Source: Siphonodentalium dalli (taxonomy: Eukaryota > Mollusca > Scaphopoda > Gadilida > Siphonodentaliidae). Taken from it: 64,000 bases of DNA. This document shows positions 44,901-58,871 of the stretch, piece by piece. A program made the position numbers and the translations under genes. A model generated the notes under the pieces. It did not search any database, was not told the DNA's origin, and was given only the letters and a program-made list of their open reading frames with translations. Numbering within the stretch: the stretch's first letter is position 1; every line of letters starts with the position of its first letter. The stretch covers positions 9,819,784-9,883,783 of the forward strand of contig CP136066.1 in NCBI GenBank assembly GCA_032622095.1, in the 5' to 3' direction.

Positions 44901-47900
44901 ATTACTGTACATTATATTGTCAAACATGTTGAGGTGGACAAACCAACGAATTCACATATCCATGAGATGGTCTTTTGTGGATAACCACAACAATTGATGC
45001 CAACAAAATCAAAGTCATTAACTCTTTGAGTGCCACGGGGCCGATGTGGTCGGCCCCCTCGTACCAACGTTACCGACGCTAGAGTGCCACGGGCCGGTGA
45101 TACCGGCCCTATTTTTAGAATTCCACATTTTGATTAAAACCAAATGTCATGTCCACCAAACTGGTTTCCAACACATTTTAGTTGGATACCCGTGTGAAGT
45201 GTGCATTTTTTATAGTTTTATAGCCGAATAAACTTGATTATATCAATATTTTCGTTAAAAATCAATGACGTAATTTTCGGCCAACTTCCAGGTTGGCACA
45301 TGAATAGGAATAGAAGCGCTAGACGGCTCATTTGCTTGCCCAATCTGCCACCATAATATCTAAATGTGTCATTTGTATTACTATATATGATCATCGCATT
45401 TGATATTATGACAATTCATGTTCAAAATGCTGGTTTTAATGATGAAATATCTATCTCAACGGCCCAACATGTCCGTTGAACTGAGGATAGAGACGGTGAA
45501 ATTGGCTGTTTGGTAAATGTCTCTATTTTAATGAAAACGAAGTGTCATACAAAACAGAAATAAATTTTGTAAGGAATATGTATTCCCCCCCATTGAATTT
45601 AGGTTCATGTAGATATAAAACCTATTTTGTGTGGTATTATAGCAGTGTAGGCCTAAATTGTTTGTTTATATGTTTTTAAGAATGTGAAGACATCATAAAA
45701 AAAATCTGGTTTCTCACAGACCCACTTGGCCTAATTAACAGCCTATTTTCGACACTTATCAGAGCAGTTACTGTTATTTTATGCTAAGGACGCTATGATA
45801 AATACATCTACAATTCTTTTCCCAATCCAAACTTAGCAAAAAACACGATTTTATGCTCGCCGAATATATGCAAAGAATGTGAGATCGGCACGTTTTAGTC
45901 ACAACTGTATTTCAAGGTTAAAATATTTTTTTTAGTAGCTAGCTGTCATGGTCCAGCAAATAAAATTAATATATAACTTTCTTCCTTGTTTATAATAGAA
46001 ATGTGAAGCAATGACGGCTGTTGAAAATATCACAGTGAAAAAGACAAAATATAGTTATTTGCTTTCGTATTCTCAGGGAATCCCTGGTAAATTCCGATGA
46101 CGTCATTGTAAACAAATGAAAACGGCATTGGCAGGTCACGGAGTTTCTCTCGTAATTCGAAGAAATTACAAACTAAAGAAGACAATATGAACTCGTAACT
46201 ATTCGACTTTTGTACAATGAATGACAAATAAACTGAATACAAAGTTAGTTAATTGTTGTCATTTCTTATCAACTTCGAATGAGTCCCGTAAATATTTTAA
46301 TTCTGAAAACGGCCTATCCCATTTTCGTTCTAAACAAATGGCTAGTTACCGTTACATGTAGGTGTGCGTACAACGACGGAGACTTTCTCAATCTCAAATT
46401 CAATTAATTTAATGCATATGAGAAATCGTCATAACTAAGAATAATAAATTTATGTGTGTTAATTTATAGACATTTAACTTTTTTCAGAATAAAATATCAG
46501 GTAAATGTCAATAAGATGGGATTTTGTGGGGAAAACTTAAATTTTCTCGATTTTACCTGGCACACCAGTTTACTTATGACCTGGTACCAAAAGTGGGTTA
46601 TCTCTCTTGTTACTGGACCAAAGTCTCTAAACTGTCTCTTTATACATGTTAAGACTTCTAATTTTACATGTTGTTTGTTGATGCTTATTTGTGGTGTCTT
46701 AATGTAATGATAAAAAATGCAGACAGACATCTATTTAGTGCCGCCAATTTGGCCAAAATTTCGTAAATAAGATGAAAATACTGGGTTTTTTAGAGTTACT
46801 CCCCTTTGTTTTTTAATGAATTATCTCCCTTTATGGTGGGCTAAAATTTATGCGGAACAAAGTTAGGAACTATTGCTAACCTATAATAGTAATGTCACAT
46901 GTAATTAGCCACTAGAATACATAGGAACTGCATCTACAAAGATGACCATATCTCAGTGAAAAAACCTGTATTTTCCCAATTTCCCTGGCACTCTAGCTAC
47001 ATAATAGTGAAAATCTCTCCGACACCGAAAGAGTTAAGTTATAAATTTTACCTTGGCATCAAACGGCAATAAGTTATAATTTACCTTGGCATCAAATGGT
47101 AATAAGTGATAAATTTACCTTGGCATCAAATGGTAATAAGTGATAAATTTACCTTGGCATCAAATGGTAATAAGTGATAAATTTACCTTGGCATCAAACA
47201 GTCTGTTACAGCAGTAAGGCCACTTGCGAGCCACAGCGAGGTAGACACGAACACAATCGAGGTAACTCCGCCCACGTAACTCATGCCATCGGTCCCTCAA
47301 CTTCTCCATCACAGCTCTGAAAAGAGGTAACAGTAGTGAGCTCTACAAGCCTACAAATAGTGACTTATTAACCCATAGAGAGCCCCACATAGACTGGAGC
47401 AGACGACACTCCATAGTGCATGCTTCCATCTGTGTGAGGCTCCATGTGGGTTAACATATAATTATTTAACCCATAGAGAGCCCCACATATACTGGAGCAG
47501 ACGACACTCCATAGTGCATGCTTCCATCTGTGTGAGGCTTCATGTGGGTTAAACATATAACTAATTAACCATGACCAGGCCTGCAAAGAGTGTGTCCGTC
47601 ATTTTCAGAATAAGGTCCCCAGAGGGTGAATTTAGTGATGATATCCTGCACAGCGGGCCAGCATCACCAAATTCACCCTCTGGGGACATCATTCTGCTCA
47701 GGCCTCATCTGCTGGAAAGTATCTATAGTCTCAAATTATCATTGTTTTAGTTGCTTTTTCCCTTCTGGGAAGTTTCTATATCCATTAATTTGCAGAAGAT
47801 AAAATGCATAATCGAGGTGACTAATGGTGAACATGACCAACTTTAACTGGGAACTTCTATCTGATCCTAGGTCTCCCATAGCATAATTAGGTTCCAAGAG

Positions 47901-58871: not shown

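Follow-up and report, generated by a model that had tools for sequence, protein, structure and literature searches.

In exons sampled from this genome (2.23 Gb in 9 contigs), tandem arrays lie across donor sites no more often than they lie in introns: in the pooled sample, a donor is met by an array like any intron point, an acceptor about half as often, and a coding interior hardly ever. Four such arrays in a single MyTH4-FERM gene, found in the window (G000:C6:9819784-9883783, the whole stretch of 64,000 nucleotides that was analysed), are most probably ordinary local tandem duplications that persist through the tolerance of splicing, in a region near a presumed chromosome end where arrays are dense. 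The arrays themselves exceed chance, whereas a siting on junctions beyond chance is not shown. Junction-specific mechanisms, including R-loops, splicing-related nicks, and RNA-templated repair, are not needed to account for these data.

Results

The MyTH4-FERM gene, which we take to be PLEKHH-like from its similarity, is encoded on the minus strand of the window. Its six modelled exons form one stop-free frame of 308 codons, and each of them is preceded by AG and followed by GT. Exon 1 in the numbering of the original prediction (58694..58871), placed by its frame and splice sites, probably encodes the end of the MyTH4 domain and closes with the donor CAG|GTATGT at 58694. Exon 2 (56140..56295) has the acceptor TTCCAG before 56295 and the donor AAG|GTGAGT at 56140. 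Exon 3 (53959..54056), with the donor AATAG|GTGGGT at 53959, continues in phase and in protein sequence into exon 4 (50664..50805), which matches FERM_M and is array-free at both ends, as is exon 5 (49280..49500). Exon 6 (47187..47316) ends at the donor AAG|GTAAAT at 47187. The model therefore comprises 12 junctions, compared with about 17 in the original prediction, and exons downstream of 47187 lie outside it.

The joined protein matches the Pfam families RA_2 (3.8e-11) and FERM_M (1.6e-10), and its exon 1 part matches the end of MyTH4 with a score under the curated cut-off. It also weakly matches myosin MyTH4-FERM structures (four distinct sequences, the best being myosin X, E = 1.7e-6). 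Two more MyTH4 exons, L131 and L129, are located on the same strand about 45 kb beyond the window. As their translations run towards exon 1, they were assigned to the same gene, which then has the domain order MyTH4 followed by FERM, with MyTH4 split over L129, L131, and exon 1. With L129 and L131 so assigned, exon 1 is not the first exon of the gene.

Tandem Repeats Finder (TRF) gave 72 rows in the window. Once merged, these make 40 arrays that take up 23% of it, or 7.6% when the four arrays longer than 900 bp are set aside. Tandem arrays with units of 21, 81, 63, and 34 bp and from 2 to about 14 copies enclose four of the 12 modelled junctions, namely three donors and one acceptor. On the minus strand, the 21-bp array at the exon 1 donor (58323..58707) appears in rows with 21- and 42-bp periods that overlap one another (75-82% matches) and includes about 14 nt of the exon, and the 81-bp duplication at the exon 2 acceptor (56232..56395; 2.0 copies, 96%) includes about 64 nt of the exon and carries acceptor copies at 56376 and 56295. 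On the same strand, the 63-bp array at the exon 3 donor (53696..54010; 5.0 copies, 98%) includes about 52 nt of the exon, and the 34-bp array at the exon 6 donor (47035..47198; 4.8 copies, 95%) about 12 nt.

The original prediction had described four arrays whose units span exon sequence and a splice site, and TRF recovered all four, all of them across junctions. It was right that they are independent and that each repeats a splice site. The rows of candidate splice sites that it described were also found by an exact-motif search, in which, with the true sites counted, the arrays at exons 1, 3, and 6 hold eight (CAG|GTATG), four, and five donor sites, and the array at exon 2 holds two acceptor sites. 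The donor of exon 3 had been misplaced at GCAG|GT near 54005. It lies 46 nt deeper in the array, at 53959, because the first 63-bp copy continues the coding sequence and its end supplies the phase of exon 4.

Other arrays lie close to these exons. A 39-bp satellite occupies window positions 59950-64000 and runs past the window end, with about 104 copies in view and 99% matches; it appears to belong to the intron that precedes exon 1. The plus strand, antisense to the MyTH4-FERM gene, carries a donor-like motif (CAGGTGAGG) in a 26-bp unit repeated 19 times (52692-53187) between exons 3 and 4. A 45-bp array (55944-56125) stops 15 bp short of the donor of exon 2. Inspection by eye shows one inverted copy of the 45-bp unit about 0.9 kb away, at about 55057-55101, so that the unit may have originated from a dispersed element.

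That four junctions should be hit by chance had been considered unlikely. However, arrays make up 20.1% of the introns of this gene, at which coverage 2.4 of the 12 junctions are expected to be spanned and four or more are met with P = 0.21. Against the sample-wide rate of 8%, the same four junctions give P = 0.012, and the answer therefore hangs on the local density of arrays. When the exons L129 and L131 are added, seven of 16 junctions and five of eight donors are spanned. At the pooled intron coverage of 24%, these counts give P = 0.07 and P = 0.02, respectively, values that are biased low, as are the preceding ones, since the gene had been picked for its arrays. There may be a mild donor excess in this gene.

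Array density around the sampled exons (L001-L200) is about fourfold higher towards the contig ends. By distance to the nearest contig end, coverage is 20.1% at 0-5 Mb (11 loci), 19.5% at 5-15 Mb (12 loci; 14.2% in 10 loci without the MyTH4-FERM gene), 11.7% at 15-30 Mb (13 loci), 4.7% at 30-60 Mb (55 loci), and 5.1% beyond 60 Mb (109 loci). With loci grouped to genes in 0.2-Mb bins, distance and coverage are negatively correlated (Spearman -0.30, p = 0.002, 103 genes), and this holds without the MyTH4-FERM gene (-0.28, p = 0.004, 102 genes). Spanned junctions number eight of 48 within 15 Mb of a contig end and 16 of 366 beyond; as this cut was chosen with the position of the window known, we give the full distance profile and its repetition without the gene. 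From their size and number, the contigs appear to be chromosomes and their ends chromosome ends. A distance of 9.8 Mb separates the window from the end of contig C6, and the gene is probably array-rich owing to this location.

To place these junctions against a background, arrays were counted in 209 sampled exons. Arrays cover 16 of 206 predicted donors (7.8%), compared with 8.0% at intron control points (eight offsets, 206 each). Relative to the mean coverage 100-500 nt into the intron (0.078 vs 0.083), the bootstrap 95% interval of the difference is -3.7 to +2.8 points. Acceptors are spanned in eight of 208 cases (3.8%), compared with 7.8-8.1% in the intron (interval -7.0 to -1.7 points), and the difference between donors and acceptors ranges from -0.4 to +8.4 points (Fisher p = 0.096). 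A TRF-free search for near-copies of 30-mers gave a similar picture, with hits at 14 of 206 donors, 12-17 of 206 intron points, and two of 206 points 60 nt inside the exon on the donor side, and at seven of 208 acceptors and one of 208 points 60 nt inside the exon on the acceptor side. Above acceptors, the 30-mer signal reaches the intron level only about 250-300 nt upstream. When the edges of the HMM matches were taken as they stand, with no splice prediction, 16 of 209 donors and nine of 209 acceptors were spanned. The median period is 60 in arrays that span junctions and 45 in those that lie over intron control points (p = 0.07). Thus, the enrichment at exon boundaries that the original prediction had proposed to look for was not found in the pooled sample, in which donors equal the nearby intron and acceptors fall below it. 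The power to detect a doubling at donors is about 95% if junctions are independent, and truly lower because exons of the same gene are not fully so.

The two parts of the sample differ from each other. In the first set of 147 exons, arrays cover 16 of 144 donors and four of 146 acceptors (Fisher p = 0.005), and on the donor side the final 80 nt of the exon contain 15 array edges and the initial 80 nt of the intron contain none. Both the pile-up of edges and the excess of donors over acceptors were set as predictions before the replicate on new gene families. In the 62 SNF2 and RhoGAP exons of the replicate, arrays cover none of 62 donors and four of 62 acceptors, and the donor-side edges number none within the final 80 nt of exon and six within the initial 80 nt of intron; neither the donor excess nor the pile-up was repeated. 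The donor rates of the two sets differ (16/144 vs 0/62, Fisher p = 0.0035). Pooled, 15 edges on the exon side and six on the intron side compare with 7.2 expected per 80 nt from deeper intron.

These counts bear on the idea that donor sites seed the duplications, with splicing or transcription breaking the DNA at the 5' splice site (through pausing, R-loops, or nicks) and repair duplicating the exon end together with its donor. The first set speaks for this idea, in its donor excess and in its edges, as do the five of eight spanned donors of the MyTH4-FERM gene. It was the leading explanation after the first set, and the failure of both halves of the prediction demoted it to a rival. Against it stand the replicate, the equality of pooled donor and intron rates at the power stated above, and the pooled donor-acceptor comparison, and we now consider it unlikely. 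A restricted form is improbable as well, in which 5' splice sites would be the preferred birthplace of minisatellites in some gene classes only (motor/FERM genes of the first set and not SNF2/RhoGAP genes), and array edges would accumulate over the final 80 nt of the exon. If true, class-specific births at donors would point to a break tied to transcription or splicing that depends on the manner or timing of germ-line expression.

Another question is whether the extra splice sites are functional, either as sources of alternative proteins or as spare U1-binding sites, and are kept by selection. Later copies were compared with the first in 19 donor arrays (16 sampled and three from the window), with the qualification that sites within one array are not independent, which applies to all p values of this comparison. 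Exon parts of the copies diverge by 5.1% (103/2003) and intron parts by 5.6% (47/832; Fisher p = 0.58), whereas the nine-base donor diverges by 3.5% (24/688; p = 0.051 against intron parts). As exon parts decay like intron parts, the extra exon ends seem to age as intron, with at most a hint of donor retention. The GT letters are retained at 146 of 155 copy positions in the 19 arrays, which could favour function, but this 94% is similar to the general identity of the copies. The evidence from the reading frame is divided. With any of the three distal sites tried at the exon 1 donor (+21, +42, and +72 nt), or with the acceptor copy that lies +81 nt upstream at exon 2, the frame stays open, whereas at exon 3 and at exon 6 the two distal sites tried for each bring a stop codon into the added sequence. 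Although human minisatellites at exon-intron boundaries can generate alternative splicing (PMC2812944), functional retention of the copies is improbable here. Selection for spare donors finds no clear support in copy decay.

Discussion

Slippage, or the filling-in of staggered breaks, can generate tandem duplications. Under the explanation that we prefer, namely ordinary duplication tolerated by splicing, they would arise in such ways at positions unrelated to splicing and at a high rate near chromosome ends, and their fate would depend on where they fall. A unit that spans a donor would leave its exon-proximal first copy joined to the intact exon, so that the mRNA need not change, and the later copies would become spare exon ends and donors within the intron. 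Because the first exon end and its donor are left intact, such a duplication can be nearly neutral. With a unit that spans an acceptor, the last copy would have to stay in use while the earlier acceptor copies compete upstream; this competition, and perhaps a disturbed spacing of the branch point, would let fewer acceptor-spanning duplications survive. A duplication wholly within coding sequence would lengthen the protein and would mostly be lost. Protection of coding interiors, and partial protection of acceptor regions, is the best explanation of the rates. The outermost, exon-proximal intact donor is presumably the site in use, and the duplications that persist are probably near-neutral. 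Among the causes put forward in the original prediction was tolerance of arrays within introns, with the exon end dragged in, and the equality of the pooled donor and intron rates fits that cause.

Boundary-spanning minisatellites are already known from amphioxus, and the measured rate is the new part. In amphioxus, minisatellite-like tandem repeats over exon-intron boundaries, termed 'mirages', have been described in Adh3, globin, and troponin C genes and, in imperfect form, in PGBD5 (PMC3087553, PMC3902484). These papers report mirages at both 5' and 3' boundaries; the units measure 10 to 160 bp, the length is unstable, RT-PCR results suggest undisturbed splicing, and the mechanism of origin is called unclear (PMC3087553; also PMC3902484). 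The arrays described here resemble them in that the units hold the exon end, the splice site, and the adjoining intron, at 5' and 3' boundaries, measure from tens to about 160 bp, and occur in many copies with AG/GT signals. All the mirage features that were looked for were found here: minisatellite-like tandem units, a spanned boundary, and AG/GT kept in many copies. In contrast to the mirage reports, a rate is given here against the intron background, and the arrays are known from the sequence of one assembly. The genome, with 2.2 Gb in 9 contigs, also does not fit that of amphioxus, which has about 0.5 Gb and 19-20 chromosomes. That the arrays or their copy numbers are artefacts of assembly is very improbable: although copies so much alike are hard to assemble, and amphioxus BflGb6 was reported as apparently aberrantly assembled in the genome draft (PMC3087553), the four arrays differ in unit and length, the sample holds 24 junction-spanning cases, BflGb6 has haplotypes with six and three units (PMC3087553), and re-sequencing spoke against assembly error at amphioxus PGBD5 (PMC3902484).

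Two further systems are related. Human genes of segmental duplications contain variable internal tandem repeats at exon-intron boundaries, with 30-bp units on average repeated four times (PMC2812944). Like the arrays described here, these are minisatellites at exon-intron boundaries; however, the human repeats come with transcripts that show novel introns and alternative splicing (PMC2812944), whereas ours are read from DNA. Intron gain by tandem duplication has been proposed, with a case in the potato RdRp gene (PMC4974935). It has in common with the present arrays that a tandem duplication brings splice signals to a new place. Unlike in that model, the arrays here lie at introns between exons of a conserved domain, and no new intron was seen in this one assembly. 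We found no genome-wide rate of boundary-spanning arrays in the literature, although subscription papers were mostly outside the search and absence of such a rate is therefore not shown.

In the sample, roughly one in 13 donors and one in 26 acceptors lie within a tandem array, which gives the anecdotal 'mirages' a rate. Such rates amount to a natural map of how splice sites tolerate local duplication. The arrays also keep spare exon ends and donors available, and alternative exons or introns could originate from these. A caution follows as well, since high repeat density near a chromosome end can produce four striking cases within a single gene.

Methods

Sampled exons were found by Pfam matches in the genome and picked without sight of their sequence. 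The first set comprised kinesin, FERM_M, MyTH4, and myosin matches (140 loci and 147 exons, with about 600 bp on each side), including L129 and L131, which appear to be part of the MyTH4-FERM gene described above. The replicate set comprised 62 exons of SNF2 and RhoGAP genes, for a pooled total of 209 exons. Junctions were predicted from the frame, the match edge, and the splice consensus. In the first set, three donors and one acceptor were unpredictable, and some predicted junctions are probably off by one repeat unit (L049, L061, and L131, in which a donor copy or coding match precedes the site).

For kinesin, 112 of 123 matches were used, 11 near-copies being dropped; for FERM_M, 14 of 16, the two dropped being a near-copy and a match whose open frame runs to 701 codons; and for MyTH4, all 14. 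The seven myosin head matches used out of 85 were hand-picked without a rule, many of the others being near-identical copies. From SNF2, 41 of 73 matches were used, and from RhoGAP 21 of 35. The rule for these two families required a match of at most 400 nt, at most one internal stop, and a frame of at most 250 codons, with near-copies dropped, and matches that passed were taken in list order to 60 regions. Two rule-passing matches, one of SNF2 (C2:143146217) and one of RhoGAP (C4:259425893), were left out of the sample by oversight, and L161, for which an array was already suggested by the match list, was retained because it passed the rule. Some intron bases were counted twice, since a few adjacent loci share about 100-400 bp. 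The source match lists hold the best candidates and are incomplete, and the UCH (63) and Pkinase (135) matches lay outside the sample.

At L161 (C6:220293535-220294854), one region of the profile yields three matches to the start of an SNF2 exon within a span of 400 bp, and a 127-bp array of five copies lies over the predicted acceptor. Among the protein kinase matches listed, at least 96 of the 135 stand in tandem at G000:C2:149.83-150.60 Mb, 95 of them on the minus strand, and the matches listed in this cluster are mostly near-identical 281-codon frames that span the whole domain.
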